64,000 nt of DNA from positions 1-64,000 of the IMG/VR virus record IMGVR_UViG_3300006919_000043. One strand, given 5' to 3'. A program made the position numbers and the translations under genes. The notes under the pieces were generated by a model. It worked only from the letters and a program-made list of their open reading frames with translations. It was not told where the DNA came from and made no database searches. The stretch is from a virus. Position 1 is the stretch's first letter. Each line of letters opens with the position of its first letter. Positions 9,553 to 44,285 of the stretch are shown piece by piece.

Positions 9553-9707
9553 GGCCATACAGAAACCCAGTCGGTGAATGCGTTGTATGCGGTGAATCCT
9601 ATTATGCAAATAGCCACGATGAAAACGGTGTTCATTATCACGATAAATACGGTGTATGTTCGGGCAAATGCTGGCGAATCAAGAGCAAGAAGGAGGATAA
9701 GAAATGA
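9549..9707 (+). CDS. small zinc-ribbon protein, 52 aa
   Basis: A short gene coupled on both sides by ATGA overlaps (9549-9552 and 9704-9707). The product has CVVC near residues 11-14 and CSGKC near 37-41, a compact treble-clef or zinc-ribbon pattern, with His residues between and a Lys-rich C-terminal tail. Coupling and Cys spacing make it very likely real. Function unknown. Confidence 0.65.
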   Translation: MRPYRNPVGECVVCGESYYANSHDENGVHYHDKYGVCSGKCWRIKSKKEDKK

Positions 9708-10303
9708 ATCTATTTTTCCTCCATCGTTTGGCGTGGCTTGCTGGCATTATGCACTGCGACAAACATGTGCCTAAGATGATTGTTGAAACATGTCAAATGC
9801 TATCAACGGCTCTCATGAAGCACACAGGACTGGGAGAGTTAATGCCGATGCGTGTTGACGGTAAGACCCCCTATTCGGGCAATAGTTATCCACACCATCC
9901 CAGCACTAAGTGGGTGGGCTTGACAAGAGCAAACTACCAGTGGGCTGTCGATCTGGGAATGTCATTACTCAATGAATACGAAAAGAGATTCGGCAAGACT
10001 CATGGTTGCACTGATGCTCTCCATCATTTCGCACAAAACGCTGATTGGATTCCGGACTTGACTGATGGAGTAATTACACCTATGGCACTGGCTATGGCTA
10101 CCCAGTATGATTACATCATTGAGGAACACCAGCACACCGACCGTGTGCAAGCATACCGTGATTTCTATGTCGCTGATAAGATACGATTCGCTAAGTGGGA
10201 AAAGGGCACACCAGCCCCACGCTGGTGGACAGAAGCCCTTGCTATACCACAGCCCACCGAACCCAGCAAACCGTTGGTTAAATACCCCGAACCCACTGGG
10301 TGA
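9704..10303 (+). CDS. conserved phage-type hypothetical protein, 199 aa
   Basis: GGAGG (9692-9696) lies 7 nt before ATG 9704. The N-terminal part contains CDKHVPKMIVETCQMLSTAL, then HP and WVGLTRANYQWA. This pattern recurs in a family of uncharacterised proteins in marine phages that I recognise by its D-K-H-x-x-K-M-I-x-E-T signature. The invariant Asp, Lys, His and Glu suggest an enzyme, but I know no demonstrated activity. It sits after a SprT-like gene and a zinc ribbon. Confidence 0.6.
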   Translation: MNLFFLHRLAWLAGIMHCDKHVPKMIVETCQMLSTALMKHTGLGELMPMRVDGKTPYSGNSYPHHPSTKWVGLTRANYQWAVDLGMSLLNEYEKRFGKTHGCTDALHHFAQNADWIPDLTDGVITPMALAMATQYDYIIEEHQHTDRVQAYRDFYVADKIRFAKWEKGTPAPRWWTEALAIPQPTEPSKPLVKYPEPTG

Positions 10304-15130: not shown

Positions 15131-15418
15131 ATGTTAGGTATTGACGAAGATGGATTTGAAATAGGCGCACGATGGGTGAACAATCACACTGGTGATGTAG
15201 CACGAATGGTGGGGGCTAACACTGTATGTATCGGCAATCGTGGTGTTCGTGTCTTTCGCTTAGAGTATGAAGATGGTTCGATATACAAAAGGGAGGCTGT
15301 CAAGTATAAGTTTGATTTTATCAGCAATTACGATGAGGAATCACTAAGAAAACATTTCACACATTTACCACCACTGGCCGAACATCTTGCCAGTATTTTA
15401 CCGGATAGCGAGGAATGA
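15131..15418 (+). CDS. hypothetical protein, 95 aa
   Basis: ATG 15131 is the only reasonable start; GGTGAT (15122-15127) is 3 nt away, which is short. A 50-nt gap before it holds no convincing gene. The first ~55 residues look like a small beta-barrel (SH3-like) with several Gly-containing turns, then a helical tail. Not recognised. Confidence 0.5.
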   Translation: MLGIDEDGFEIGARWVNNHTGDVARMVGANTVCIGNRGVRVFRLEYEDGSIYKREAVKYKFDFISNYDEESLRKHFTHLPPLAEHLASILPDSEE

Positions 15419-15420
15419 GC

Positions 15421-16863
15421 ATGAGCGTCAATTTCCGCCACATCTCCGCTTGCTGTCGCCAAGCATACAATGGTGTTAGGCGACCTGCGGTTGTAGCGGA
15501 ATCAGCGTTTGCGCTCTCTCCCCGTGATATACCACAACTGATAGACTTCTTTTACGAGGATAGTCGCATTGACAGGAAATTGACTGATGAGGATTTGCGT
15601 GAGATATTTTATCATCTCACCGACCTTTACCCCGAAGAATGTCAAGACGATCCCGACATCGTTGATTTATTGTCAAACCTTGCACCAAAGGATAAGGAAA
15701 CGAGAATGACATTTGCTTTTGCATATCAAAGAATGCAAGACATACTAAATGAAACAGACAACCGTATTCGTGCATTTGCTGTTCGTGTTGTGTTGAAGCG
15801 TAGTGAACCTAAAGACGCATACTGGTTCCTCCTTCGTTTGACACGAACCGCCAACCCTTTCAAGAGGCGTGATATTATACACGCACTGGCTAAACACTAC
15901 GACATACCGGCTGAAAGGTTGAAGCGTGAATCAATGTTCACTACATTGAAGGAATTGGCTGTTAGGGCTAATGAGGACAAACTGGTTGGTGTTCCCACTA
16001 TTGGTGAGCGTATGCTATTACCGCTACCAAGAAGGCACACCGACATAGAAAAGCCGTTCTCTAAGATGGCTATGGAGGTAATTCGTGGTGAAAGACTGAC
16101 GCTACATACACACCCGACATTCTATTGTTTGACATACGATCCGCATGGTGAACAAATTGATACTGACGACATAGACACTACACAATTAACAGCGTGCTTG
16201 CCGAATGGAATATACATCGTTGAACACACACCACAAGACGATTTCCCATTGAAAGTGTGTGATGCTTTGCATGTAGTGGACACTGATATTTTCGACAAAG
16301 ACTACAATGCAAGAAGGGAATGGCTTGAGGAAACTGTTTCGGATTTACTACTCAAAGAAATAGAGCGTGTTGATAACATGAAGCAAGTGATAGGTGCCGC
16401 ACCTAAGAATGGCGTTGTTTTCTTGCATAACCTTGAGGCGAACACTACCTTCACTACTTCACCTAATGAAACTGTATTGTTCAGCACAAAACACAGGGGA
16501 GAGGTATTCCGTGTGTTGGGTGGTGTGTGGAGGCATGAGCCAGCCAAAGGTCTTGCATTGACTGGCTGGCGTATTGGTGCCCGTGATGGGATCGATGGTT
16601 ACTATGAGGTTGGAACAATTACAGCCGAGCCGGATGTGCAAAAGCGTCTATTCCGTTTGACTGAAAAATCCACAGCCGCCGAAGGCACAAGGGTGGACAT
16701 GAAAGGTGCTACCTTTGTTGAGGTTGAAATCCATACAACCGACTATGATGAGCGAGGAATACACCTTCAAGGTATTATCACTGATTTAGCACCGAGTATG
16801 GGTATATCCGATGTGGTTGCTGTGGAGGATATTGAGTATTTGGTTGGTGATGTTGATGAATGA
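15421..16863 (+). CDS. degenerate ATP-dependent DNA ligase-like protein, 480 aa
   Basis: ATG 15421 lies 7 nt after GAGG (15410-15413); ATG 15415 is too close. The order of domains matches archaeal ATP-dependent DNA ligases: a helical N-terminal domain (~20-200), a nucleotidyltransferase-like part (~205-335) and an OB-like domain (~340-480, with GWRIGARDG and GYYEVGTIT). The motif I position reads EVIRGERLTLH (~221-231) where active ligases have E-x-K-x-D-G-x-R, so the lysine that takes AMP is absent. Motif IV reads NGVVFLH and motif V also lacks its Lys. It is probably a catalytically dead ligase acting in binding or regulation. The family call is from pattern only. Confidence 0.58.
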   Translation: MSVNFRHISACCRQAYNGVRRPAVVAESAFALSPRDIPQLIDFFYEDSRIDRKLTDEDLREIFYHLTDLYPEECQDDPDIVDLLSNLAPKDKETRMTFAFAYQRMQDILNETDNRIRAFAVRVVLKRSEPKDAYWFLLRLTRTANPFKRRDIIHALAKHYDIPAERLKRESMFTTLKELAVRANEDKLVGVPTIGERMLLPLPRRHTDIEKPFSKMAMEVIRGERLTLHTHPTFYCLTYDPHGEQIDTDDIDTTQLTACLPNGIYIVEHTPQDDFPLKVCDALHVVDTDIFDKDYNARREWLEETVSDLLLKEIERVDNMKQVIGAAPKNGVVFLHNLEANTTFTTSPNETVLFSTKHRGEVFRVLGGVWRHEPAKGLALTGWRIGARDGIDGYYEVGTITAEPDVQKRLFRLTEKSTAAEGTRVDMKGATFVEVEIHTTDYDERGIHLQGIITDLAPSMGISDVVAVEDIEYLVGDVDE

Positions 16864-17224
16864 AAATGACATCGCTTTGTTGTATTTGGCTACAAATGCG
16901 AGGTTTAGAATTGCCTCACGCTTGACCACAAGAAGCCAAACTGGCTACCAAATACGCCCCGAATGCGATATTATGGGAAGAAAGACAATACCCGCTAAAG
17001 TAAGCAAATTACTCAAGTCGCAAGGGCTACCAGTCCAGCAACGCTATACTAAACCCGAACATCTAACGAGGTTATTGCGTTTAGTAAAGCCATTCAAAGA
17101 CTTCACTAAAGATCCCGAAGGCTATGAAAGTGTGGTGAATTGGGAACATTGGGATGAGGAACCTTTGAAAACTCATGCTGATGTGCTTGACATCTTAGGG
17201 AGGTTGGAAAATGAATCTGTTTGA
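16856..17224 (+). CDS. hypothetical basic protein, 122 aa
   Basis: ATG 16856 overlaps the end of the ligase-like gene by 8 nt; ATG 16850 is also in frame. The product is basic in the middle, with a TKPEHLTRLLRLVK helix, and ends acidic. No known domain. It lies between the ligase-like gene and the gene at 17211 with overlaps on both sides, so the three are probably translated together. Confidence 0.5.
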   Translation: MNENDIALLYLATNARFRIASRLTTRSQTGYQIRPECDIMGRKTIPAKVSKLLKSQGLPVQQRYTKPEHLTRLLRLVKPFKDFTKDPEGYESVVNWEHWDEEPLKTHADVLDILGRLENESV

Positions 17225-17780
17225 AGATGAGTCATTGGACACAAACGACTGGTTCTCCGTGTGCCCTAATTCTGTGGATATTATATTTGAGGAAAAGAAG
17301 CATGGTTTGTTTTACACTATGCGCCAATTTATGACAAACTGGGATAGGTTGGAGGTTGCTAAGATGTTGTTGAAAACACAATCAAGCGAGCGCATGATAC
17401 TCGATACCATGAATTGCACAATCCCCAACAATCCAGTAATACAATTTGTAGCAAGGGAATTGACGCTTCGTGTTGACCCTAAGATCTTATTCACTATACT
17501 GGCACTGTCAAACGACGGCACCAGTCGAGGTAAGATATTGTTTCCCGATAAGCAGAAGGCTGTGCCAAAGCACCTGCTGAAAGTGTTTGGGTTGCGGCCA
17601 ACCGAAGGTGAGTGGTTTGAGCCAATTACTGGGAGAATAGAGAATGTTCGGGCTGTCGTTTCACTGTTGAAAGACAGCGATTATGAACACATCATACATG
17701 ATAAACCAACGGTCTTAAATTTTGAAGAAGAACAGGGCACTGCGACCCTGTTTAGCGGTGAATGGGGGTCAAGACAATGA
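17211..17780 (+). CDS. hypothetical protein, 189 aa
   Basis: GGAGG lies 8 nt before ATG 17211. Residues ~70-125 are rich in hydrophobic residues and look like a helical bundle (IQFVARELTLRVDPKILFTI), followed by a mixed segment with several Pro and Lys. Not recognised. It closes the small-gene block; a promoter for the replication cassette follows. Confidence 0.5.
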   Translation: MNLFEDESLDTNDWFSVCPNSVDIIFEEKKHGLFYTMRQFMTNWDRLEVAKMLLKTQSSERMILDTMNCTIPNNPVIQFVARELTLRVDPKILFTILALSNDGTSRGKILFPDKQKAVPKHLLKVFGLRPTEGEWFEPITGRIENVRAVVSLLKDSDYEHIIHDKPTVLNFEEEQGTATLFSGEWGSRQ

Positions 17781-17789
17781 CACCGAATC

Positions 17790-17821
17790 TTTTATACCCA
17801 AGCCCCTATTGGGTTGAACCC
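17790..17821 (+). promoter_or_regulatory. TATA box with two inverted repeats before the replication cassette
   Basis: TTTTATA (17790-17796) is followed at once by CCCAA-N7-TTGGG (17797-17813) and GGGTTGAACCC (17811-17821), two inverted repeats sharing GGG. Transcription from this TATA would begin near 17820, inside the second repeat, where a bound protein would block it. It is a good candidate promoter-operator for the DNA replication genes. Confidence 0.45.
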
Positions 17822-17837
17822 TGCGAGAGATGATACT

Positions 17838-18797
17838 ATGACGCAATTATGGATGAAACACAGACCCGACCGATTGAACGATATGGTTGGGCTTGAGGAA
17901 TTGAAACTTGATGTTCCTAACTGGGTTGTCTATGAGCAAAACAAGCACAAACTCCGATGTGGTGGTGTTATCTTCTTTGGGTCAAGCGGCACTGGTAAAT
18001 CCAGTGGTGCGAGAGCCATAGGTATGGATCTTTTGGGCGATTCATTCTCGCAGAACTTTCACCCCTTCAATGCCTCCGATGATAGAGGAATACAATTTAT
18101 CCGTAACAGGTTGAAGCCTCTTGCTGAACAGCGAGCCGTTGGGCATGATTTCAAGATTATATTCCTTGATGAAGCCGATGGGTTGACTAATGATGCTCAA
18201 GACGCACTTAGAGAAATCATTGAGTCAACGGGCACACATGTCCTTTGGATATTGGCGTGTAACCGTATTGGTCGCATTATCCCAGCCTTGAGGTCAAGGC
18301 TACCTGCATACAATTTTACTCCCTTGAACGGTGATGATGCCGAAGGTTTCATCTTGCGTATCATAGAACAAGAGGACTTGCCTCAAGAATGGCTTGACTC
18401 CGTTCCACAATTGGTGAAGAAATACAAAGGTGATATGCGTGCCTGTTTGAAACTTCTCCAAACTCTCAATCCAAAAGACGCTGATGCTTTGAGTCGAAGC
18501 GTGGAGAAAGATACAGACGGGATTAGAAGTCTTTACTCGGCTATGGCTGGTGCTGGTGAATTGATTGAATTATCAAGCGATTTAGTAATACAGCGAGGTT
18601 ATTCCCGTGATGATATTATTGATGGTATGCACGATGCGATTATCCATCATTACAATGAAGGTGATGTGGGGCAAGCGGTTGCCCTCAAGCACCTTATGAT
18701 ACTGGGTCAGTGGGCGGCAAGATCTTCCGACTGGCTATCAAGCGATGTCCTATTCCTCCAATCAATGGTTGGGGATTACAGACAAAGAGGTTTTTGA
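17838..18797 (+). CDS. RFC small-subunit-like clamp loader ATPase, 319 aa
   Basis: ATG 17838 is preceded by GAGATGAT; the in-frame TTG at 17814 is less likely. The AAA+ motifs are clear: N-terminal KHRPDRLNDMVG, Walker A GSSGTGKSS at ~48-56, FNASDDRG at ~78-85, Walker B FLDEADG at ~109-115, sensor 1 ACNRIGRI and LRSR. RFC loads the PCNA clamp onto primed DNA, and PCNA is encoded three genes on. The usual SRC signature reads SRL. No large RFC subunit is seen, so it either forms a homo-oligomer or joins host RFC. Confidence 0.9.
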   Translation: MTQLWMKHRPDRLNDMVGLEELKLDVPNWVVYEQNKHKLRCGGVIFFGSSGTGKSSGARAIGMDLLGDSFSQNFHPFNASDDRGIQFIRNRLKPLAEQRAVGHDFKIIFLDEADGLTNDAQDALREIIESTGTHVLWILACNRIGRIIPALRSRLPAYNFTPLNGDDAEGFILRIIEQEDLPQEWLDSVPQLVKKYKGDMRACLKLLQTLNPKDADALSRSVEKDTDGIRSLYSAMAGAGELIELSSDLVIQRGYSRDDIIDGMHDAIIHHYNEGDVGQAVALKHLMILGQWAARSSDWLSSDVLFLQSMVGDYRQRGF

Positions 18798-18798
18798 A

Positions 18799-20139
18799 AT
18801 GAGCGAAAATAGAGAATTAGGTAACGAATGTATTGAAGAAGCGAGCAAGATATTGGGTATCAGTGTTGAAGAAGCACGGGCATCCTTTGGTTCGTGGATG
18901 AACGAAACTTTCCCCGATATGTGGGATATGGTCGGTAAAACGATTGATGGTCTTGATGATGATGATTACAATGACTTTGCTGATATGTTCGTTTGTGCAA
19001 ACCGCCCAACAGGCGGTGGCGGTGGTTCCGGTGAGGAATGGGTCGGTGCATTCATTGGTTTTGATAGAAGAATTGACTTGATGAAAAGAAAGCGTGAAAT
19101 GGCTATTGACATAGCCACTGCTGATTTATCGGGTGCTATCAATAACGGTTTCACTTACAATGGTAACAAGGTCGGTATAGGTCGAGCCTTTACTGCTGAT
19201 GGTGTTTGGCGTGCTGAACACAGTGCGGGCACCTTCGTGTCCACTGTGGCTTCCGATACTACACCGGACTGGGTTATCCCTCTCAATGAGAAACTATCTA
19301 TTTGTATGCTCAAGCCGGACAATACCCCACAGCGTGCATCAGCACTGAAATCTGTATGGGCGTTTCATGGCAATACCAAAGAGCAATTCCTTGAGATCGG
19401 TCCGATCACAATCGCTGTTGAGGGTGCCTTTGAGGCCGCAAAGCATGACTGGAAACTATTTACTCCTGTAACCATTAAAGGTAAATTCGATGAAGAAGGT
19501 TGGAAGGGTAGCGGTGCTACTCTCACTGTTTCATCACCAAACGCTGAATATGGCCTTGACTGGGTTCCCGATGGCAAAAAGCGTGAAACCTGTGAAAAAC
19601 TATTCCAGCCCGACCAGTATCTTACTACCACTGGTGAATGCGCTGTGAATGTCAAGGATTTACTACAACACCACTTAGATAACCGAAGGGAATCTTATGT
19701 TGACCGTAATGGTGTTCAGCGATATGATGGTGCTTTGGTTGCTGTTGTGGGTGGTGTCATGGACATCAACCATGAAGGCCGTGAAACCGAATGGGATCCA
19801 ACAGGCCGTGATTACTACTTATCTATCAGCACACAGGTTCTAAGGCGGGAAAATCCAAACGCTCGCATTGGTATCAAAGTCGGTGGATTACTCAAAGAGA
19901 ATCACAATGGGCTATCTGTGCTGAAAGGTGGAGAATGGGTGCCGTTTGCTAAAGGCTCAAGAATTTGGGTTGTTGGCCGCACTGATTCATACATGAACCA
20001 AGACGGTGATGAGGTAGTCAGCATTCAAGCGCAGGGTATCTATGCCATCCCACACAAATCTATTCCAGCACGCAAGCCAAGCGAGGACAGCAACGATCTC
20101 GGCAACCTAAGTGGCTTCGGTGTCGGGGGTGATGAATGA
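18799..20139 (+). CDS. candidate ssDNA-binding (RPA-like) protein, 446 aa
   Basis: ATG 18799 follows AGAGG at 8 nt and lies 1 nt after the clamp loader stop. Residues 1-70 are helical and acidic, then a Gly-rich linker (GGGGGSG), then a long beta-rich region with probable OB folds (~160-270 and ~300-420). Its place between RFC and the RadA-like ATPase is where archaeal viruses often carry an RPA-type protein. No zinc finger is visible. The function is inferred from fold and context, not from a recognised signature. Confidence 0.5.
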   Translation: MSENRELGNECIEEASKILGISVEEARASFGSWMNETFPDMWDMVGKTIDGLDDDDYNDFADMFVCANRPTGGGGGSGEEWVGAFIGFDRRIDLMKRKREMAIDIATADLSGAINNGFTYNGNKVGIGRAFTADGVWRAEHSAGTFVSTVASDTTPDWVIPLNEKLSICMLKPDNTPQRASALKSVWAFHGNTKEQFLEIGPITIAVEGAFEAAKHDWKLFTPVTIKGKFDEEGWKGSGATLTVSSPNAEYGLDWVPDGKKRETCEKLFQPDQYLTTTGECAVNVKDLLQHHLDNRRESYVDRNGVQRYDGALVAVVGGVMDINHEGRETEWDPTGRDYYLSISTQVLRRENPNARIGIKVGGLLKENHNGLSVLKGGEWVPFAKGSRIWVVGRTDSYMNQDGDEVVSIQAQGIYAIPHKSIPARKPSEDSNDLGNLSGFGVGGDE

Positions 20140-21335
20140 TGGGAACAGGATTCTTAGACGGCTTCAAAGAAAAGAAGGGTAACTACGAACCACCAACCAA
20201 AGAGGCTGGTGGTAACAAGAAGGCTAAGGCGAAGCCAAAGGCCAAACCTGCACCGAAGAAGCAAGAGCAAATTCCTATCGAGGCATTGGTTGACGATGCA
20301 CCGCCAGTGGTTGACCACGAACCGGAGGAACCGGTTGAGGAACCTATGCCACAGCCACCTGCAAAGCCTAAACCTTCACCGAAGGCCAAAGGCGACTCTC
20401 ACCTTGACCGTGTTAATTCTTCTATTGCTAACATGATTAGACAGGCAAGAAACAGCGTTCCAATCCAAACCTATGTTATGTGTGGTATCGCTGGTATGCC
20501 TAAGACTGGTAAGACTGGTATGGTTCTTGACAGCCTTACAGAACAAGAAGTGCAAAATGGTGCTGAAATATGGCATATTGATTTTGATTTGGGTGGAGAA
20601 ACTACAAAGGCGGCTCACCATCAAGACAAGATGGACAACCTTGTGGTGCTTAATCCGTGGGTTTTCAATTACGGACAAAGCCGTGTGCCTTACGATTTCC
20701 CAGCCACATTCCAACAGACTATTGACATACTAAAGACAGCACAGGCTCAAATGCAAGCACAGAATGATTACTATGCTGAACATGGTAAGATGCCTAACCC
20801 GTATCTAAAGACTGTCGTGTTCGATGGTGCCGACCATTGGTTACATATCACTGAAACCTGTATGAAGGTGGATGATTTGGATTTGGGTGTTGACGGTATT
20901 GCTGTATCAAGCAAGAAGGCTACTACACAGATCGGTCGTTTCAATTGGAATATCCGTGCTACACGATACCAAACCGCTATGGTTGCTCTCCGTGAGTTAT
21001 GTCGTGGTGGTGTTCACTGTTATGTCATTACACACATGAAGCCAGCATACGATTCATCGGGTAATGAATTATCCGGACAGCATTCTCCAAAGTGGCTCAA
21101 AGATACCGAAGGACATCTTCAACAGGTTATTCATACCGAGTTAGAAGAAGAAAGGAATGAGCAAGGTGAATTGACTGGTGTAGTGCGTGGCTACGCTGTT
21201 ATTGTTGCCGACAGGACTTCACTGCAAGCCAGTGGTCGTGTTCTGTTGTTTGAGCGCAACCAAGACGGTGGTGTTTGGCACGGATGGCAAGGACTCAAGA
21301 CTGGCGATTTCAATGTTTTAAGGGGCGATGAGTGA
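20136..21335 (+). CDS. RadA/Sak4-like recombination ATPase, 399 aa
   Basis: ATG 20136 overlaps the previous stop. The first ~90 residues are a disordered Lys/Pro/Ala- then Glu/Pro-rich arm. The RecA-like core follows: Walker A GMPKTGKTG at ~120-128, Walker B TVVFDGADH at ~226-234, and a strand-end motif CYVITHMKP near 298. Sak4-type phage proteins and archaeal RadA use this core to bind ssDNA and promote annealing or strand exchange. There is no N-terminal HhH domain of cellular RadA, so Sak4 is the closer model. Confidence 0.75.
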   Translation: MMGTGFLDGFKEKKGNYEPPTKEAGGNKKAKAKPKAKPAPKKQEQIPIEALVDDAPPVVDHEPEEPVEEPMPQPPAKPKPSPKAKGDSHLDRVNSSIANMIRQARNSVPIQTYVMCGIAGMPKTGKTGMVLDSLTEQEVQNGAEIWHIDFDLGGETTKAAHHQDKMDNLVVLNPWVFNYGQSRVPYDFPATFQQTIDILKTAQAQMQAQNDYYAEHGKMPNPYLKTVVFDGADHWLHITETCMKVDDLDLGVDGIAVSSKKATTQIGRFNWNIRATRYQTAMVALRELCRGGVHCYVITHMKPAYDSSGNELSGQHSPKWLKDTEGHLQQVIHTELEEERNEQGELTGVVRGYAVIVADRTSLQASGRVLLFERNQDGGVWHGWQGLKTGDFNVLRGDE

Positions 21336-22129
21336 TGGTGGTTGCTGTAACTTTACATCAACACACAATCAAGCATTTCCTAAATGCGTTCAAAGGCATG
21401 GATGATTTGGTTATCAGCATAGGTGAAAGCGGTATTAGTGCGGCTGGAACAATGGACAAAGCATACTTTGTATCTCGCCACTTTCAATATCGTAACGAAG
21501 AAGAATGTCACACTGCTGGTGACATAGCACTGGGTCAATTGTCCACCTTTGCCGCACTTGTTGAAGAATGTGGTAATGGTGGTGAATTGGTTAAGATCTC
21601 CTTAGACGACAAAGGCGTGTTAAGGGTGGTTGGTGACAGTCAAGATTTCAAAATGCCGACAATCCAAACCGCTACATCACAGGCCGGTGTATCAGTAATC
21701 AAAAAACAAATTGCCCTGTCAGCCGACACGGAATACAAGACATTTGGTAACGATGAAATACCGTTTGACTTTGGTATGTGGTTTTGGGCACATGACTTTA
21801 CGACTTTACAGACGACTGGTAAATCAATACAGAACGGTGCATTGTTTTGCCTATCGGTCGAAAGCGACAACACACTCAATCTCGGTGTTCAGCGTGATTC
21901 TATCCGTATGAATGCCAACCTTGAACCCGAACCTCCACACACTGTGTTAAACGACACAGTAATGTGGTTTGGAAAGTGGCTGATGGATGCTCTTAGGGCT
22001 ATGCCTAAGACTGGGGTAATCCATTTGCACGGTGGTAACAATACGCCTTTGCTCATAAGACATGAGTTAGACGGCATCATGTCCACCACCGCTATCATCG
22101 CACCCCGCCAAGAGGAAAGCGGGGAGTAA
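21335..22129 (+). CDS. PCNA-like sliding clamp, 264 aa
   Basis: ATG 21335 overlaps the previous stop (TGATG); GTG 21332 is an alternative. The length fits archaeal PCNA (~245-250 aa) with a small extension. The N terminus is a strand-helix unit (LHQHTIKHFLNAFKGMDD then VISIGESGI), and the C terminus has a helix (FGKWLMDALRAMP) and the closing strand LLIRHELDG, as in the second PCNA domain. It would trimerise around DNA and tether PolB, encoded directly after it. Overall identity to PCNA looks low, but context is strong. Confidence 0.82.
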   Translation: MVVAVTLHQHTIKHFLNAFKGMDDLVISIGESGISAAGTMDKAYFVSRHFQYRNEEECHTAGDIALGQLSTFAALVEECGNGGELVKISLDDKGVLRVVGDSQDFKMPTIQTATSQAGVSVIKKQIALSADTEYKTFGNDEIPFDFGMWFWAHDFTTLQTTGKSIQNGALFCLSVESDNTLNLGVQRDSIRMNANLEPEPPHTVLNDTVMWFGKWLMDALRAMPKTGVIHLHGGNNTPLLIRHELDGIMSTTAIIAPRQEESGE

Positions 22130-22131
22130 TT

Positions 22132-24459
22132 TTGATTGTCACAACATACGATACCGAAGATCAAGATTGTCCTTCAATCCACATTCGTTTCCGCAACCAA
22201 GACGGAAAGGTGATGGAGAAGGTTGTGGATAAATACTATCCATACTTCTCCATTTCAGCCGACAGTGATATGGCACATATCACCCAACTCTTTGACGAAA
22301 GGTGTCATGGTTGGTATGTTGGTGCTGTTGAGGCAAACTCACTGCCCACGAAGGAATACCCCGAAGGGAGGAAATTGATACAGGTGGTTGCACCCGACTT
22401 GAAGGCACTGAAACAGATGCGAGATGTTTGTGATGAAACATGGGAGGCAGACATTGGTTATGCCGACCGGTATTTGATAGATGAGATCGCACCCGAAGAT
22501 TTCCCCGACTGGTTTCCGAACATGGTTCGTGCCGGTGGCCTTGACTTAGAATGGAATAAAGACGGTGAGATTACTGCTATGGGTTTCACCACAGATGGTG
22601 TGGTTGTAAAGCAGTGGGCGTGGCATCCAACTATGCCCGAAGTCGGTCTTATGCGATTTTCGCCAACCGATGATGTAGCCAGCGTGTTCTCTAATGAAAG
22701 GGATATGCTGGTTTCTTTTGCCAACGCATTTCAAGAATTAGACCCCGACCTAATTACAACATGGTCGGGGAACCGTGCCGATTGGCCTAAGATATACGAA
22801 AGATACAAACACCATGACATCGGTTTAGATTGGATTTCGCCGTTGGCTGGGGTCAGTGCTTCGCCACCAATGATGCACTTGCCGAGAGATGGTCGCTACA
22901 ATGATGGTAGCCAAATCATACTCGGTCGCATGGTTTTAGACTTAGCGGATCGAAATCATGGTTTTGAGCGTGTATGGAAAGACAGTGGCAACGGCCAATT
23001 ATCCGACAGGCGTTTAGGTGCTGTTGGTAAAGTGGCGTTCCCTAATAATCCCGAATTGTGGAAAATAGATACGGGTGGTTTTACGCATCACGAATTGTGG
23101 CTTGACCACTTTGCTCACTTTTTGAAGTATCACCGTGCCGATGTTTTACTAACAGACAAATTGGATAGAGAGTATCATGTAGCACGCTTCTTCATGGCAT
23201 TACAACGAGTATGTGGCGTTTCTTTCTCATCAGTATTTACTGTCAGCAAATTCGCAAGAGGACTATTGCGAAGGCGTGCCACATGGGCGGCACCCACTGG
23301 AACATACAAGAAGGGCGTTGGTGATTCATACGGTGGTGGCTTTGTTCCGCACCCAAAGACTGGGCGTTTCTATGATGTAGCCTGTTTCGATTTCCGAGCC
23401 ATGTATGCTGAAATACAACGTGGTAACAACATCAGCCCCGAAACCATACGCTTTGGCACAGGAGATGGAATCCGTGAATTGGGTAATGGCACTTATTGGT
23501 ATCAAGATGAGCGTGGGGTATTGCCCCAACTGCAAATGGATCTTGCCGATGCGAGGAATGCCGCCAAAGCGGAGATGAAAAAACATGCACCGGAATCATC
23601 CGAGTATGCCGGTTTCAACACACTACAATTGGCCTTCAAGCGTGCCGCGGCGAGCGTATATGGCCTAATGGGTCATACTGGGCACGGTGAGTCGCACAAG
23701 ACTGTTGCCTCAACAATTACCTATGTGGGTCGCCAATTGACATCACGCTTGATGGAGATATGCGAGGACATGGGTTTTGAGCCATTGGCTGGACATACCG
23801 ACAGCGCATACATACAAATTGGCGATAACGATGGTGAGAATATCGCTGATGCTTTGACACAAACCATACAGAAGGAGTTTGACTCCGATAGGTTTGTTGT
23901 CGAGTATGAGAAGCACATGAGGGCGTGGGTAGCGGCTAAGAAGAATAGAAACTTTGGCTGGGTTACTTGGCCGAAAGAAGGACTACACTGCACAGGCTTT
24001 GAGATGAAAAAGTCAAATGCGGCACAGATAACAAAAACAATACAAGAAAATTCCTTTGAGGCTATGTGTAAAGACAATGCCGATGAGTCATACATACAAG
24101 GGCTGGTCAATGATGCAATCGCTGATGTCCGAAATATGAACCGCAAGGATCTTGTTATGCGCTCTCGCTTAGGTGCGAAAGCCGAATCATATTCACAAAA
24201 CGGTGGTTTTCAAGGTGCCGCTAAGAAATACAACCGCTTGAACCCCAACAATCGCTTCGACAAAGGCGATGGTGTTCCTCATGTATATACCACAAAGGGC
24301 ATTGAAGCGTTCAAGACCGACGAAGAATTAAGCAAATTAGACATAGATTTCACCACAGTGATAGAAAAGCAAATTATAGCACCCGTTTCCCTTATCTTTG
24401 AGGCGATGGGTTGGCGTTTGCCGTCAGCCGATGGTGCTAAACCACAGGAGTGGTGGTAA
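22132..24459 (+). CDS. polB: family B DNA polymerase with 3'-5' exonuclease, 775 aa
   Basis: TTG 22132, with GGGGAG 5 nt upstream and no ATG nearby. Exonuclease motifs: Exo I LDLEW (~137), Exo II NRADWP (~216), Exo III YHRAD (~336). Polymerase motifs: A CFDFRAMY (~418), B KRAAASVYG (~503-511), C GHTDS (554-558), D KKNRNFG (~603). Motif C has both key acidic residues. Motif A reads RAMY where SLYP is usual and motif B has Ala in place of the usual Asn, so it is a divergent branch. It is the replicative polymerase of the virus. Confidence 0.95.
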   Translation: MIVTTYDTEDQDCPSIHIRFRNQDGKVMEKVVDKYYPYFSISADSDMAHITQLFDERCHGWYVGAVEANSLPTKEYPEGRKLIQVVAPDLKALKQMRDVCDETWEADIGYADRYLIDEIAPEDFPDWFPNMVRAGGLDLEWNKDGEITAMGFTTDGVVVKQWAWHPTMPEVGLMRFSPTDDVASVFSNERDMLVSFANAFQELDPDLITTWSGNRADWPKIYERYKHHDIGLDWISPLAGVSASPPMMHLPRDGRYNDGSQIILGRMVLDLADRNHGFERVWKDSGNGQLSDRRLGAVGKVAFPNNPELWKIDTGGFTHHELWLDHFAHFLKYHRADVLLTDKLDREYHVARFFMALQRVCGVSFSSVFTVSKFARGLLRRRATWAAPTGTYKKGVGDSYGGGFVPHPKTGRFYDVACFDFRAMYAEIQRGNNISPETIRFGTGDGIRELGNGTYWYQDERGVLPQLQMDLADARNAAKAEMKKHAPESSEYAGFNTLQLAFKRAAASVYGLMGHTGHGESHKTVASTITYVGRQLTSRLMEICEDMGFEPLAGHTDSAYIQIGDNDGENIADALTQTIQKEFDSDRFVVEYEKHMRAWVAAKKNRNFGWVTWPKEGLHCTGFEMKKSNAAQITKTIQENSFEAMCKDNADESYIQGLVNDAIADVRNMNRKDLVMRSRLGAKAESYSQNGGFQGAAKKYNRLNPNNRFDKGDGVPHVYTTKGIEAFKTDEELSKLDIDFTTVIEKQIIAPVSLIFEAMGWRLPSADGAKPQEWW

Positions 24460-24460
24460 G

Positions 24461-25408
24461 ATGATAACATATAGAGAACCCCGACCATATCCCGTGCCCG
24501 ACCATGACGATTTATTCTCATGTTACAACTGGCACCCCGATATGCCGGACAATGTTATTCTCCGTGCGAGTAAATCATCGGTGGGTGACTTTACCTTCTG
24601 TAAGCAACAATACGCAATCAGCAGGGTTCTCGGCATGAAAGAGCCACAGAATGAGAACATGCTACGAGGAACAAATGTCCACGATAGTGTCGAATTGTTT
24701 TACCAGCGTGTTGATGTTGACAAGGCAAGTGAAGAACACGACCTTGAAAGATACTTTCGTGATTGTATTCCACATTCCAGTGAGATACGCTCGGCTCAAG
24801 ATAATTTCTTCTTAGAAGAGGACTTACACATTGACAGATTCTTAGAGAAAGAGATTCAGCGTTTTAACGCAAGCGACCCACAACACTTCTTACCAACTGG
24901 CAACGAATTGGTAATTAACCATGTTCATGAAATAGAAGTGGATGGTATATCACAAAGGGTGCATTTCACCGGTATCATAGATAGGATATTTACCAACCCC
25001 GATGGGTCATTACACATACACGAATTGAAAACTGGTGCATGGAAAGATAGCGCAAGTAAATTTAGAAACATGAGAAAGGAAATGGCTTTCTATGTATGGT
25101 TGCTAAGAAAGTCCGACCCAACCAATGCAATCACACACTGGGGTTGGGATCACACTAAAGGTGTCAAGAATACCGACACCTTTGACGCTGAAATGTTCCG
25201 TTATGTTGAGGCTGTCCGTGCAAAAGAGATAGGCGAAATGCTGGGCGACATACAGAATCTAATCCGCACGCACAGGAAATACAAAGGTGATGATGATATT
25301 AGCATGTTCCCCTTGTTACCATCGGGTGCCCAATATATGATATGCGATCCGTGGTGTGGCTTGAAAGAATTTTGCCCACGCTACCACCAACACATAGGAG
25401 ATGAGTAA
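24461..25408 (+). CDS. Cas4/RecB-like PD-(D/E)XK nuclease with Fe-S cysteines, 315 aa
   Basis: ATG 24461, 1 nt after polB. Core: SKSSVGDFTFC near residue 38-48 (first Cys), RGTNVHD near 69-75, GIIDRI near 166-171 (Asp), HELKTG near 181-186 (E-x-K) and MAFYVWL near 205. The C terminus has CDPWCGLKEFC, which with the N-terminal Cys can hold a 4Fe-4S cluster, as in Cas4 and AddB. Such nucleases trim DNA ends in recombination and replication. There is no cas1 or cas2 nearby, so it is not part of CRISPR adaptation here. Confidence 0.82.
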   Translation: MITYREPRPYPVPDHDDLFSCYNWHPDMPDNVILRASKSSVGDFTFCKQQYAISRVLGMKEPQNENMLRGTNVHDSVELFYQRVDVDKASEEHDLERYFRDCIPHSSEIRSAQDNFFLEEDLHIDRFLEKEIQRFNASDPQHFLPTGNELVINHVHEIEVDGISQRVHFTGIIDRIFTNPDGSLHIHELKTGAWKDSASKFRNMRKEMAFYVWLLRKSDPTNAITHWGWDHTKGVKNTDTFDAEMFRYVEAVRAKEIGEMLGDIQNLIRTHRKYKGDDDISMFPLLPSGAQYMICDPWCGLKEFCPRYHQHIGDE

Positions 25409-25409
25409 T

Positions 25410-26621
25410 ATGACACGAAACACGGACAAGGACTTCGGACATGGCAAGCATATTGACATTATGGTTGGCGATTGTGTTGAAAGCATGAAATCACTACCGG
25501 ATAAGAGTGTGCAAACTTGTATCACCAGCCCACCATACTGGGGGTTGCGTGATTACGGTCATGAAAAACAGTTAGGTATGGAAAAGACACCCGAAGAATT
25601 TGTGGCTAATATGGTCGAAGTGTTCCGTGAAGTGAGGCGTGTCTTGCGTGATGATGGCACGCTATGGCTCAATCTTGGAGATAGTTATGCCAGTGGTAAA
25701 GCAAGATATTCCACGAAAGAGCAATCATTTCTTGGTGGTAAAAGAAATGACGCTAAGTTAGGGGCACTGCAAGACGGTAAGCGTGCTTGTGTTAAACATC
25801 ACGATTACTTGAAGGATAAAGATCTTGTTGGCATACCGTGGCTTGTGGCGTTTGCATTACAGCGTGATGGCTGGTGGCTAAGACAAGATATAATTTGGCA
25901 TAAGCCAAACCCAATGCCCGAATCGGTAAAGGATAGATGCACTAAATCTCACGAATACATTTTCTTGTTGACCAAATCGCCAACATACTACTATGATGAT
26001 GAAGCGGTCAAAATTCCAGTCAATGACCCAAGCCGAAAAAACTACCAAAGTGGTGCGAGGACTAACGGTTTCAATTTAGATAGGAATGATAATGACATGG
26101 CCGAGCGCATGAAAGGCGTAATCTTCGACAAAAAGAAAAAGCGTTCTGTATGGTCGGTAAAAGTAAAACCATTCAAGGAGGCGCACTTTGCCACTTATCC
26201 CCCCGAATTGATTGAGCCGTGTATATTGGCATCAACATCGGAACACGGGTGTTGCGCTGAATGCGGTGCCCCTTATGTTAGAGAAATAAAAACCACTTAC
26301 CCTAAGATGAGAGGTATAGAAGCAAGAGATGTGCCGGGTCAAAACAAGCATGGCTCATTTGGTGCCACAAGGTTTGACGACCCAATAGTAACCGAAACTA
26401 CGGGTTGGAAACCATCGTGCGATTGTAATGCTGAAATATCAAGATGCACCGTATTAGATCCGTTTGGTGGTTCGGGAACCACTGGGGCGGTTGCGCTAAA
26501 GCATGGGAGAAAAGCAATACTGTGTGAGTTAAACGAAGAATATGCAAAGATAATACCAAAGAGGATAGAATCTATCACTGGTTTGTCGGCAACACAAAAG
26601 ACATTCGATGATTGGTGGTGA
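25410..26621 (+). CDS. beta-class DNA methyltransferase (N4-cytosine or N6-adenine), 403 aa
   Basis: ATG 25410 lies 9 nt after GGAG (25397-25400). The catalytic motif TSPPYWG (~38-44) comes before the SAM-binding motif DPFGGSGTTG (~350-359), the beta-class order. An inserted segment has GCCAECGAPY and CDCN, likely one zinc site, as often in phage enzymes of this type. It methylates DNA bases in a short target. There is no restriction nuclease partner here, so it probably protects viral DNA or marks it. The target base cannot be told from sequence. Confidence 0.9.
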   Translation: MTRNTDKDFGHGKHIDIMVGDCVESMKSLPDKSVQTCITSPPYWGLRDYGHEKQLGMEKTPEEFVANMVEVFREVRRVLRDDGTLWLNLGDSYASGKARYSTKEQSFLGGKRNDAKLGALQDGKRACVKHHDYLKDKDLVGIPWLVAFALQRDGWWLRQDIIWHKPNPMPESVKDRCTKSHEYIFLLTKSPTYYYDDEAVKIPVNDPSRKNYQSGARTNGFNLDRNDNDMAERMKGVIFDKKKKRSVWSVKVKPFKEAHFATYPPELIEPCILASTSEHGCCAECGAPYVREIKTTYPKMRGIEARDVPGQNKHGSFGATRFDDPIVTETTGWKPSCDCNAEISRCTVLDPFGGSGTTGAVALKHGRKAILCELNEEYAKIIPKRIESITGLSATQKTFDDWW

Positions 26622-31289: not shown

Positions 31290-31514
31290 ATGCCTTACCA
31301 ATGGTGGGAATGTGGCACCAAGAAGTGCGACAAGAAAAAAAAATGGTCAATTGCTAAAAGGCCGGGATGCCGAAACTGTGGTCGAAAAAAGAATATGGAG
31401 ATAATGGAACCTCAACCTCCACCACCGAAAGACTTTTTCAAGCAAGACCGTATAGAGGCCGCAGATCGTGTGTTAAAGGGCTGGATTGATACCTTCAAGG
31501 GTCGCTCAAAATAG
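31290..31514 (+). CDS. small zinc-ribbon protein, 74 aa
   Basis: ATG 31290, 2 nt after the previous stop, with GAGGAATAGG upstream. The N-terminal half has CGTKKC and CRNCG with many Lys residues between, fitting a zinc ribbon that contacts nucleic acid; the rest is a Pro-rich linker and a helix. It is the last gene of the plus arm, and its end overlaps the end of the minus-strand methyltransferase by 9 bp. Confidence 0.6.
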   Translation: MPYQWWECGTKKCDKKKKWSIAKRPGCRNCGRKKNMEIMEPQPPPPKDFFKQDRIEAADRVLKGWIDTFKGRSK

Positions 31515-32861
31515 ACGCTGTTGTAGTGTAGTCGGCATTTGTAGTCCTTTCAACCCGAACATCTCCACCTGTGGGAATTTGTTTGATTTTGGCTTACGAA
31601 GCCACGGATATAAAGTGTAGCCACTGTCTAACGCATCTTTGATATATTCCTCTAATGGTTGGTTCTTATCCTTAGCATACATGTAGTTAGACAGTATAGA
31701 TGGTCCGGAATGTTCCCTGCCTAAGCGCAAAATACCACGCTGGAAATCATCGTATGTTCTCCCCAACTGCTGTAAGCCCGTAGCACCATAATCCATATCA
31801 CGGGATATGTAAGGCGGATCTAGATACAACAGGTCGGTGGGTCGTAACAAATCACCGATGTCTAACGCATTACCCTGTGTAATATCCACGCCTTTGTAGC
31901 GTGGTGCGTAAGCATCGAGATTTATTTTACGACTCATAAAAGGAAAAGCACGGAAGTCCTTTGCTTTCTTTTTCTCCGCTTCACTGAACCCATCCCACGA
32001 ACCCTGTGCGTGGTATCTGTTGAATTGTTCCATAGTGGCTTGACTGTTATCTCGGAATTTTTGGTTGGGGTATCGGCCTTCTGTATATGGCACACGATAA
32101 TCGCCTTCAAAATTCTTCATGGGCACTTCTTTGCCTTTCTCGTTCATTTCGGTGCGACCCTGCCAATCTGTGCCTCTCCAATCGGTGCGGAAACTTGCTA
32201 AGTTATTTCCTACAAACAAGCGAGCCATTCTCAACATTTCCTCATCGGTCATGTCCTCTCCATGCACATCACGCCTCATTCTCAAATGGTTCAATTCGGC
32301 AAAGTTATCATCTAACTCCTGTTGATTTTGAGGAATTACTACATCACCCATGCCTCTCTTGGCCTGTCTATGTATGTTCACTATATCGGGATTCATGTCA
32401 TTAATCAGCCCAGTGCCACGATTCATACCTAACACGAATGAACCACTACCACCCATAGCCTCAACGGGTCTATCCCATTCACCTAACTTTGATGCCATTA
32501 CACGAAACTTAGGCATCTCACTGGTCTTACCCCCCTCCCAATTGATGAAACTTGTGAGCATATTGTTTTCCGAATCAGTAAATCCTCTCATAGCATCAAA
32601 GATAGGTTGAGGGTCTTGTCCGGCCAGCACTGCGTTACGCATAGCCATGAGGGGCGTTCCCTCACGCCTACCAATAGAACCCTCTCTTTGCGCCTTTGTG
32701 GGCTTGAAAGGCGGGGCTGGTAGTGCTTGCCCTTCTTCTGTGAGTAAGCGCAAGGATTCGACAATCATAGGGTCTAATTCGTCTATGTCCTCATACTCAA
32801 CTCCGTTGAATACAATACCTTTCATGATCGACCACGCTTCGGAGAACGCATCACGATTCAT
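31506..32861 (-). CDS. Dam-like (D12 class) DNA adenine methyltransferase, 451 aa
   Basis: The start is ATG at 32861, with GTGAGG 9 nt upstream; an in-frame GTG at 32876 is the alternative. The SAM-binding motif AMGGSGSFVLG (~134-144) comes well before the catalytic LYLDPPYIS (~346-354), the order of D12/Dam N6-adenine methyltransferases. A ~100-residue stretch between them is longer than in Dam and may hold the target-recognition domain. It is the last gene of the late operon. With the beta-class enzyme at 25410 this gives two DNA methyltransferases and no nuclease. Confidence 0.82.
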   Translation of the reverse strand: MNRDAFSEAWSIMKGIVFNGVEYEDIDELDPMIVESLRLLTEEGQALPAPPFKPTKAQREGSIGRREGTPLMAMRNAVLAGQDPQPIFDAMRGFTDSENNMLTSFINWEGGKTSEMPKFRVMASKLGEWDRPVEAMGGSGSFVLGMNRGTGLINDMNPDIVNIHRQAKRGMGDVVIPQNQQELDDNFAELNHLRMRRDVHGEDMTDEEMLRMARLFVGNNLASFRTDWRGTDWQGRTEMNEKGKEVPMKNFEGDYRVPYTEGRYPNQKFRDNSQATMEQFNRYHAQGSWDGFSEAEKKKAKDFRAFPFMSRKINLDAYAPRYKGVDITQGNALDIGDLLRPTDLLYLDPPYISRDMDYGATGLQQLGRTYDDFQRGILRLGREHSGPSILSNYMYAKDKNQPLEEYIKDALDSGYTLYPWLRKPKSNKFPQVEMFGLKGLQMPTTLQQRLF

Positions 32862-32872
32862 AAACCAACGCC

Positions 32873-33034
32873 TCACTTTTTCGTATGCCTAAGACCCGAC
32901 CAGCATATCTCTTGTAATTCGGCATCATCTTCAAAGATAGTGAAATTCAATTCATCGGTGTTAATTGTATCATAAGCAATCCAAGTCACAATAAAGCCAA
33001 CTATCATTCCACCTACAAACAAATATCCTATCAT
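32873..33034 (-). CDS. small single-pass membrane protein, 53 aa
   Basis: A short gene between the methyltransferase and the basic protein. ATG at 33034 overlaps the previous stop (ATGA), and its TGA overlaps the GTG at 32876. Residues ~3-20 (YLFVGGMIVGFIVTWIAY) form one clear membrane helix, followed by an acidic tail with one Cys. Its place late in the virion operon suits an egress or membrane-disturbing role like a holin, but nothing specific shows this. Confidence 0.6.
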   Translation of the reverse strand: MIGYLFVGGMIVGFIVTWIAYDTINTDELNFTIFEDDAELQEICWSGLRHTKK

Positions 33035-34587: not shown

Positions 34588-34928
34588 TATCTCACTTCCA
34601 TTACTACATCTATTCTTACTTCATTGGTAGCGTTCTTACTTATTGGTATGAAAGAGGATCTAAACGCTGGGTCGTCTAACGGTGTGCTACCGTGTATCAC
34701 GACTTCTTTGATTGATTGCGAAGATACTTGGTCGGTTCCAAATATTGCATTGACCGATATGGTTCTATCATCAACACGCTGAACCACAGGCGTTTTAGTC
34801 AATGCAACATTACCTACACCGTTGTTCCTTCTTGACGCTTCTCCACCTGTTGTTCCAAGACTCATGTTTTTCATAAGAGTCTGTAAATGGTCTGTTAATT
34901 TTGCTTTTATTGAATCTAATATTGGCAC
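34587..34928 (-). CDS. small baseplate-type protein, 113 aa
   Basis: GTG start at 34928, overlapping the stop of the giant gene as TAGTG, with a perfect GAGGTGAGAT upstream. Helical N terminus, then a beta-rich half with VQRVDDRTISVNAIFG. It may be a tail-tip or baseplate assembly protein. Not recognised. Confidence 0.5.
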   Translation of the reverse strand: MPILDSIKAKLTDHLQTLMKNMSLGTTGGEASRRNNGVGNVALTKTPVVQRVDDRTISVNAIFGTDQVSSQSIKEVVIHGSTPLDDPAFRSSFIPISKNATNEVRIDVVMEVR

Positions 34929-37900
34929 TATCTCACCTCGTAAAACACCGACTTAGAATGACCCAGTGGGTCTGCCCTGTTAGAACTTACCCTAAATTCT
35001 GCCCCATCGGGTATGGTTACTAAATTATTGGCTGTAAGCGTGAATTGAAGAACCGATACTGGGTCAACTGCTACCACCCCAACAAATTGCCCATCGGTCA
35101 AATACACACGGTCATTGGCTTTTATTCGTGTTCTCACATCAACACCATTGACCGCAATAAACGGTGTTGTATTAGCGTTTATACCACCGTTCTTTAGCAC
35201 ACCAGTAAGACCACCCTTGACACCAATAGCACCCAACTGACTGGTTTGCTCGGTGTTTCGCCACCTACCACCAATCAACAGCCTGTTGTTAAGGACAAGC
35301 CTTGTCAATATTCTTTGTGCTGATAGTATGCGAACAGTGTCCGACATACTTACTGATACTTGTTCACTAAATTCTCCCGTTGGTTTCTCACTGGTGGTTT
35401 GTAATGAAGATAATATATCCGCCAACAATCCTTCAATACCCTTTTCATACTGTCCTATGACCATAGATGTCATTCCGGTAGTGCTATCGTGCGTTGTTTC
35501 AAACACAGCGAACAGTCCTTTGATACCTTCATTTGTAAAGTCCACCGCTATGATTTCACCGGGTTCAATATGGCTGGCACTTACTAAACCATCAACCTTA
35601 ATGAGCGAAGCACCTTGCTCACTTCTATTCATAATTCTCTTAGCCATTTTCTTTGCTACGGAGTTAGATGTCAAACCGGCTACAATATTTGTTGAAGTCC
35701 TTGTTACGCCTTCTTCATTACCAGTGCCGCCCATTTGTTTTATTTTCTCTAAATCTTTTATCTCGGAACGCACCTTTTCATTCTCCGCCAACCTTTCACC
35801 TTCAACAATAACATGGTTAGCCATTTCTAACATAGCACTTATCTCTATGTTTTGAGGACCACTACTTGTTCCAAGTCGCTTCTCCTTTGCTACAAAGGCA
35901 TCGTTTGAATACAATATAATTCCGTTGCTATCCATTACCAACTGCTTGTCGTCAAACTGGGATAGCGTTCTCAAAACCTCCATCAAACCAACACCATTGA
36001 CATCTCGATCTGTAAATACACTGCTATGTTCAACGGTGGCATACAATGAAGGGTGTGCGTTCAAATACGCTTCTTGTGATTGTCCACCCATAGACCCACC
36101 CAAATCAGTAACAAGAGCATTTTCAACAACCTTTTGCGATAATACCGACTCATAAGGTAGTAAATCGGCACCGGCAATTGTTTGTTCAACATCTTTCAAT
36201 AACATCAAAGCGGCATCACTGGTTCTTACACCAACGCTCATGTAGTGTGCAAGCCTAACATATCCATCTAAAGAAATACCGGAGTCTGCCAGTGAGTTTT
36301 CTTTTAGGTTACGGAATTTCAATGTGTTGTCAACAGCACCCGATACTCTCCACCGGTTTCTTGCGGCATCGAGTAAATATGGGGAGAAGTGATTTGACGA
36401 AAGAGCCTTACCATCAACATATACAGTGGTTAAACCGCCTGTTCCCGGCTTGCGTATGTAAGACAATGAACCCTCTTTGTTTCCATCGTTTAGCACAAAA
36501 CGCTGGGGAGTTAGCATTGTGAAGTCCGAAGGTTCGTAATGACCCAAAGCACGATATGAGAGTGCTGTGGATATTGGTGTGTCATTAAGTGTGTTTGTCG
36601 CCTCCCACTTTTCAGCCTCATAACCAGCCATCGTGATAGCATTATCAACAAACGAAGGCAACACTACCAGCGAATGCCTTGATGGATATGTATTCGCTAT
36701 TGTGGATTTTACAGTAATTGATGCGTTCTTTCCAAATATTACCTCCCTACCGGACAAGTCGTTAATCGAAAGACAATCTCCGGTTGAATTATAAACAAAG
36801 AAATGGTTTTCATCTCGGCTGTTGTAAAATAATGACCCACTCAAACCAATAATAACCAGTGAACCCGAATATGGGAAGCCTGTTGCATCTTCAACAACTA
36901 ACATATTCCCAGCATCAACTTTGATGGTAGTCCTTGAGCCAAGCGTAGTCATTGTATGATCTGGTTGGGCACGCACAGCAATCTCATCGTTTGCCATTCT
37001 CAAATACGGTCGCATTCTCTTGAATTGATTTGTATAATTCAATCCCGTTTGCACTTCTGTTTGTGATACAATATCACCACCACCGGGGTGTGTGCTTTGA
37101 GAATATCTTGCATCAATCTTGGTGTCTAATTGTCCGTCTTGATTTCGTCTTGCCGCATCGGATTTGAAGTGTTGAAGCATGTTAGCACTGGGTATTAGAT
37201 GCCAAACTTCATTTCGATTGTTCCCATCCGGCCATGTCATGACTGGTGATCTATCTTCACTTGCTGTAATAGGTTCAATGTTACCATAGGTTTTGTTGCT
37301 GTTTAACTCAAACATGCCGTATCTCTTATCACGGGTGAATGGCTGGTGGGTGTTACCCGTTTGCGACAGTGTGCTAAACCCACCAAGCAACCATCCGTCT
37401 TGACCCAAATCAATGCCACCACCTTGTTGCCTTGACGACCAGCCAAAGACTTTCAATGGCCTTACCATACGCATGATGTAGTGTGCTTCTTTACGCACTG
37501 GTTGTAAAGTCGCTGACGACTGTGGTGCATTGAATCCAGTGTTGCTAAGGGCACCGCTTATATCTCCAACTGGCGTAATTGAGCGAACCCTGTTACTGTT
37601 TTCTTCATACTCTAACCATTCTCGCTTCAAAATATACACACCACCCCACGGTGGTAAATCACCACAGCCTCTTACAGCCCAATGGTCTTTTATGTATTCA
37701 GTAAAGTTAGATACTGTATCGCTCAATGTTGGACTACCTAGATCGGCTTTACCATTCAAAATCCATTCGGGATAAGATGTCCTTTGGTTAGTGCCCAATC
37801 CATCCGGACCTCCGTATGTTCGTTCAAAGGTCGAAGCATTGGTTCTTGATGAACCAGCGTTCTTTGACATAACAGTTTCAGTAACATAAGATGGAGTCAA

Positions 37901-44281: not shown

Positions 44282-44285
44282 GTTA

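Follow-up and report, generated by a model that had tools for sequence, protein, structure and literature searches.

Replicative DNA ligases are regarded as enzymes first. The locus described here raises the question of what a protein of the ligase fold contributes to a virus when the residues of ligase chemistry have gone. The window, i.e., the whole stretch of DNA that was analysed (64,000 nucleotides), forms part of a virus record of 77,726 bases, and the carriers of the inactive ligase are a group of marine, putatively archaeal viruses. A preliminary description, made from the letters alone, had placed a ligase-like reading frame at 15421-16863. The frame and its end were correct, while the start was not: position 15421 is the second in-frame ATG, and the ORF opens at 15415. 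The gene and the parts of its product are as follows.

15415..16863, + strand: inactive LigI-type DNA ligase homologue, 482 aa (ORF, AlphaFold2 model, Foldseek and hhalign matches)
15415..15990, + strand: DNA-binding-domain-like helical part, residues 1-192 (domain identity ratios, Arg conservation)
15580..15603, + strand: family signature L-T/S-D-E-D-L/F-R-E, residues 56-63 (invariant D58, E59, D60, R62 and E63; absent from live ligases)
15991..16494, + strand: nucleotidyltransferase-like part, residues 193-360, acidic and least constrained (charge, identity ratios)
16075..16107, + strand: motif I remnant EVIRGERLTLH, residues 221-231, with Gly and His kept and the nucleophile Lys lost (alignment)
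16495..16860, + strand: OB-fold part, residues 361-482, with motif VI lost (AlphaFold2 model, alignment)

Single-sequence searches of Pfam, PHROGs, NCBIfam and the PDB with the window protein gave no significant ligase match. The curated Pfam cut-offs of PF01068, PF04675 and PF04679 were not reached; the only signal, to PF04675, came from 2 of 23 members at E 0.09. Weak matches to HEAT_2, DED and antibody chains were rejected as identities, being due to chance or to helical repeats. Relatives were collected by scanning viral contigs with growing alignments, which gave 33 and then 63 loci, some of them repeating the same contig. The working set consisted of 38 non-redundant sequences, including that of the window, all from viral contigs; the other 37 members are 24-64% identical to the window protein. 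No relative was found in cellular genomes, and tblastn gave no match in INPHARED. One relative, at locus L034 (909-1790), contains an in-frame TAA after ∼294 codons, which is either a sequencing error or the mark of a truncated copy.

The fold was assessed by structure prediction and by profile comparison. With only three sequences, AlphaFold2 returned a pLDDT of 36; the model used instead was built on the alignment of the 38 family members, without any live ligase, and reached a pLDDT of 88.1 and a pTM of 0.59. In a Foldseek search of the PDB with this model, the top match was the LigI of Pyrococcus furiosus (2cfm, E 1.9e-20), the best 50 matches were all ATP-dependent DNA ligases or ligase-containing complexes, and most of these alignments run full length. 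Full-length TM-scores to the PDB ligases are ∼0.5, with high rmsd, which is read as a predicted arrangement of the three domains that differs from that of the PDB ligases. A viral structure library searched with the same model yielded mostly viral DNA ligases. Independently of the model, hhalign aligned the inactive family with 40 LigI sequences, taken from contigs of archaeal genomes and, in a few cases, from bacterial bins, over 459 columns in order. The match covers all three domains with a probability of 95.9% (E 6e-9), against 0.1% for the reversed profile and ≤0.9% for 40 column shuffles. The product is thus predicted to fold as an archaeal LigI, with its architecture of DNA-binding, nucleotidyltransferase and OB-fold domains kept, and the domain order and fold proposed in the preliminary description were borne out by both routes.

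The catalytic motifs were then compared in an alignment of the 38 inactive members, 40 cellular ligases and 23 live ligases of viruses (that of HGTV-1 and 22 found on IMG/VR contigs), in which the live ligases carry the motif residues. The one-residue gap in motif I can be placed in two ways, as MEVIRGERLTLH or as EVI-RGERLTLH against EYKYDGERVQIH; under either placement the lysine is present in none of the 38 members, the window protein included, confirming and extending the loss described for the window. At the aligned column the motif III Glu is likewise missing throughout (0/38), as are the Glu, Gly and Lys of motif IV (0/38 each) and the Arg and Lys of motif VI (R-x-D-K; 0/38). The preliminary description also had motifs IV and V without their Glu and Lys. 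Motif IV conforms to this; of the two motif V lysines, the first is found in 1/38 members and the second in 15/38, among them the window protein (K359). The disappearance of the motif I Lys, the motif III and IV Glu and the motif IV Lys is therefore common to every homologue. A lysine shifted into the neighbourhood of motif I was not found; only one lysine, K314, is invariant, and by sequence position it is some 90 residues further downstream. Given the known ligase mechanism, and because the catalytic residues are lost, lysine adenylylation (step 1) and metal binding should be impossible in this family.

Other residues of the ligase framework persist. The Gly and His of motif I are found in 38/38 members and its Glu in 35/38; the Asp and Arg of motif IIIa and the Arg of LRxG in the DNA-binding domain are each kept in 38/38, and K314, D283 and R300 are invariant as well (38/38). 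The motif I Arg is present in only 18/38 and the OB domain has lost most of its basic residues, so that a closed clamp of the ligase type is unlikely to form. No PIP box (the PCNA-binding motif) was detected in the family at the LigI position by alignment. Compared with P. furiosus LigI (2cfm), the window family thus shares the three-domain order and fold, Gly and His in motif I, Asp and Arg in motif IIIa and the arginine of the DNA-binding domain, but is without the nucleophile, the metal-binding Glu residues, motif IV Lys, motif VI and the PIP box at its usual place. The annotated ligase of HGTV-1, a structural neighbour, was rejected as a family member: since it has the lysine (QRKVDGYR), it is a live ligase outside the inactive family, and hhalign of the family against the single HGTV-1 sequence was unsuccessful. 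Live and dead ligases are ∼15% identical. No description of an inactive viral or archaeal DNA ligase was found in the open-access papers searched.

The origin of the gene is suggested by its neighbours in the window, which are listed below.

16811..17224, + strand: ORF137, small, between the ligase and ORF189 (no family match)
17211..17780, + strand: ORF189, related to the P-loop protein of live-ligase viruses (gene order, profile comparison)
17814..18797, + strand: clamp loader, RFC small subunit-like (AAA, phrog_168)
18745..20139, + strand: ORF464, phrog_4477-related (after the inactive ligase in 37/38 loci)
20136..21335, + strand: RecA-fold, Sak4-like protein of the ssDNA-annealing family (phrog_124, gene order)
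21332..22129, + strand: putative sliding clamp (position and size only; no family match)
22132..24459, + strand: family B DNA polymerase, PolB (PF00136, phrog_262)

Viral contigs carrying a live LigI (EYKYDGARYQIH) were collected by means of a ligase query. In these, the ligase is followed by small ORFs and then by the genes of an ORF189-like P-loop protein, RFC, an ORF464-like protein, a RecA-fold protein, a putative clamp (256-258 aa) and PolB. The gene order of the window is the same (the clamp by position only), and the inactive protein occupies the ligase slot. ORF464 matches its live-virus counterpart in a profile comparison (94.4%). When the inactive-family profile, built without live ligases, was run against 86 ORFs, the seven live ligases ranked first (E 1e-10 to 3e-8; next 0.13). 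Given the shared slot, the ORF464 match and this ranking, the most plausible reading is that the gene is this virus group's own ligase gene, apparently inactivated in place and kept.

A PF01068 search of 33 dead-ligase records, of which many are partial, detected no LigI, and no dead ligase was detected with the inactive-family profile in seven live-ligase records. Live and dead ligases were therefore mutually exclusive in all records searched, which, since the records may be fragments, does not prove the lack of a live ligase for each genome. In a tree of the Sak4-like protein (unrooted, with long branches), the live and dead viruses are split by one fully supported branch, a pattern in keeping with a single loss. 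An ATP-dependent ligase has been published for Magrovirales, and the live-ligase contigs resemble that group in having such a ligase together with a split PolB. The split PolB (with its N- and C-terminal parts on separate ORFs, following the naming in the Aoguangviridae profile) occurred only in live-ligase records; the PolB of the window is one 775-aa ORF and so lacks this Magrovirales trait. Another trait of that order is a Poseidoniales host. The magrovirus-like live ligase is accordingly the counterpart of the window gene in its slot in the replication operon and as the best profile match within those genomes, but it differs in having EYKYDGARYQIH and the other catalytic residues, and in the records searched it was never found with the inactive gene.

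A second ligase-type domain was observed in the same virus, just past the window, in a 1167-aa head-module protein (record positions 65741-69244, - strand, in G000; locus L025:3742-7245) whose gene lies between those for the portal and the prohead protease. It seems unusual for a head module to include a ligase. This nucleotidyltransferase domain keeps the motif I Lys (QKKPEGKR) and has lost the residues of motifs III, IV and V. Its counterpart in the magrovirus-like loci L231-L234 has intact motifs (VVQEKYDGMR, AEGVVIKD, WIKWKK; PF01068 E ∼1e-30); the viruses of these records (G034, G036, G035 and G038) have two ATP-dependent ligase domains that look live, the first in the replication operon and the second in a capsid-module protein of ∼750-865 aa. 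With both the replication-cluster ligase and the head-protein domain altered, both ligase-type proteins of the window lineage look degenerate.

Loss of chemistry has not been accompanied by loss of selection. In pairwise comparison with the nearest relative (97% identity), the dN/dS of the ligase is 0.048, versus 0.119 for PolB, 0.069 for RFC and 0.099 for ORF464. The frame is open over 482 aa, and the suggestion that its integrity reflects selection was upheld, also in the comparison with PolB. The domains have not been treated alike. The ratio of domain identity to whole-protein identity is 1.04 for the DNA-binding domain of the inactive family versus 0.84-0.86 in live ligases, and 0.94 for the catalytic domain versus 1.04-1.09. 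Among live ligases, conservation is lowest in the DNA-binding domain and above average in the catalytic domain, and the inactive family shows the reverse; by these ratios, constraint appears to have shifted away from the catalytic domain and onto the DNA-binding domain. The mean net charge of the catalytic domain is -8.5 in the inactive family, compared with +3.1 for live ligases of viruses and +5.7 for those of cells, while that of the DNA-binding domain is +0.7 versus -3.5 in live viral ligases. Five arginines, R15, R62, R119, R141 and R151, are invariant or nearly so, and all lie in the DNA-binding domain. The protein is acidic overall (pI ∼5.3), as are most replication proteins of the same virus.

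The gene neighbourhood was further analysed across the family. The RecA-fold protein, which matches phrog_124 (best E 9e-7) in 11 of 21 members, comes next after ORF464 in nearly all 38 loci. In most relatives RFC, the clamp and PolB are missing from the block, yet the inactive ligase is still present. A large sister group (L073, L077, L080, L089, L094, L096, L101, L103, L104, L111 and L112) has retained ORF464 and the Sak4-like gene along with the inactive ligase; in the loci inspected, the block contained no RFC, ORF189 or clamp. PolB-less records of this group span 67-108 kb, and neither PolB nor PolA, the latter sought as a replacement, was detected in PolB-less relatives (0/11 records tested). 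As the ligase is kept without a polymerase, its steady association is with ORF464 and the annealing protein rather than with the polymerase. Elsewhere in the window are a pyrimidine dimer DNA glycosylase-like protein (9704-10303; a weak match just under the Pfam cut-off), two DNA methyltransferases (25401-26621 and 31506-32876; classes N6_N4_Mtase and D12) and, in the minus-strand half, a 3125-codon ORF (34928-44305, - strand). No tRNA or Rfam family was detected within the window.

With the catalytic residues lost and the gene nevertheless intact and conserved in a replication/recombination cluster, the protein probably works by binding DNA or partner proteins rather than by sealing breaks. 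Our preferred reading, to which we assign a probability of roughly 0.6, is that the retained pseudo-ligase would serve as a non-catalytic DNA- or partner-binding scaffold in recombination or replication. The DNA-binding domain and the altered surfaces may hold nicks, ends or annealed strands or duplex; the protein would gather ORF464 and the Sak4-like protein, plus RFC and PolB where present; and nick sealing would be left to the host ligase. A working parallel, by analogy, comes from end joining, where DNA ligase IV has a structural role even when inactive: repair is promoted by inactive Lig4 (PMC9638927), and DNA binding by Lig4 builds the synaptic complex (PMC10858965). In both cases a ligase-shaped protein would aid DNA joining without catalysis of its own, but Lig4 is ordinarily an active enzyme and works together with XRCC4/XLF in NHEJ, whereas the window family, of which Lig4 is not a member, is viral and inactive throughout. 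A narrower version, in which the pseudo-ligase synapses ends or nicks for Sak4-driven recombination-dependent replication, is kept even without a polymerase of its own and has seen the capsid-module ligase domain decay in parallel, is put forward tentatively, at somewhat under even odds.

Most of the family-specific invariant residues, those of LSDEDLRE, have no counterpart in live ligases, which counts against the binding reading and might indicate that the protein contacts other proteins and binds little DNA. The strongest of the rival explanations, although in our view an unlikely one, follows from this: DNA binding would be lost too, and the ligase shell would only hold replication and recombination proteins together. 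The signature found in this family only, the acidic catalytic and OB domains and the constant ORF464 and Sak4-like neighbours all suit such a pure protein scaffold, whereas the LRxG Arg in 38/38 members and the further invariant arginines of the DNA-binding domain speak against it.

A second rival, distinctly less probable, is a dominant-negative blocker that occupies nicks or PCNA and delays sealing by the host ligase. Such a protein would need the shape of a ligase without its chemistry, and with the virus's own live ligase lost, self-inhibition would be irrelevant; but a virus without its own ligase needs that of the host, the PCNA-binding box is lacking at the LigI position, and the gene sits among replication genes. 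The binding or scaffold role in recombination is favoured over blocking, because constraint and basic residues appear to have shifted to the DNA-binding domain and the Sak4-like neighbour is steady.

We consider it very improbable that the protein is still an enzyme, with another residue as nucleophile or a different nucleotidyl reaction. Strong selection and the invariance of K314, D283 and R300 would fit, but no member retains either metal-binding Glu or the lysines of motifs I and IV, constraint is weakest in the catalytic domain, and K314 aligns outside motif I. A decaying pseudogene or a sequencing artefact, which the stop in L034 might suggest, is refuted by the low dN/dS and by reading frames that stay intact in almost every homologue extracted, even at 24% identity.

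The window-type protein is thus a variant on the known LigI architecture in which the chemistry has been discarded. In practical terms, motif I of ligase-like genes in archaeal viral genomes should be checked before these are counted as self-sufficient replication machinery. A viral lineage that drops the chemistry and keeps the protein under strong selection provides a natural case of separation of function, and the inactive family raises the question of which roles LigI may have besides sealing, for which its gene neighbours point to annealing and recombination.
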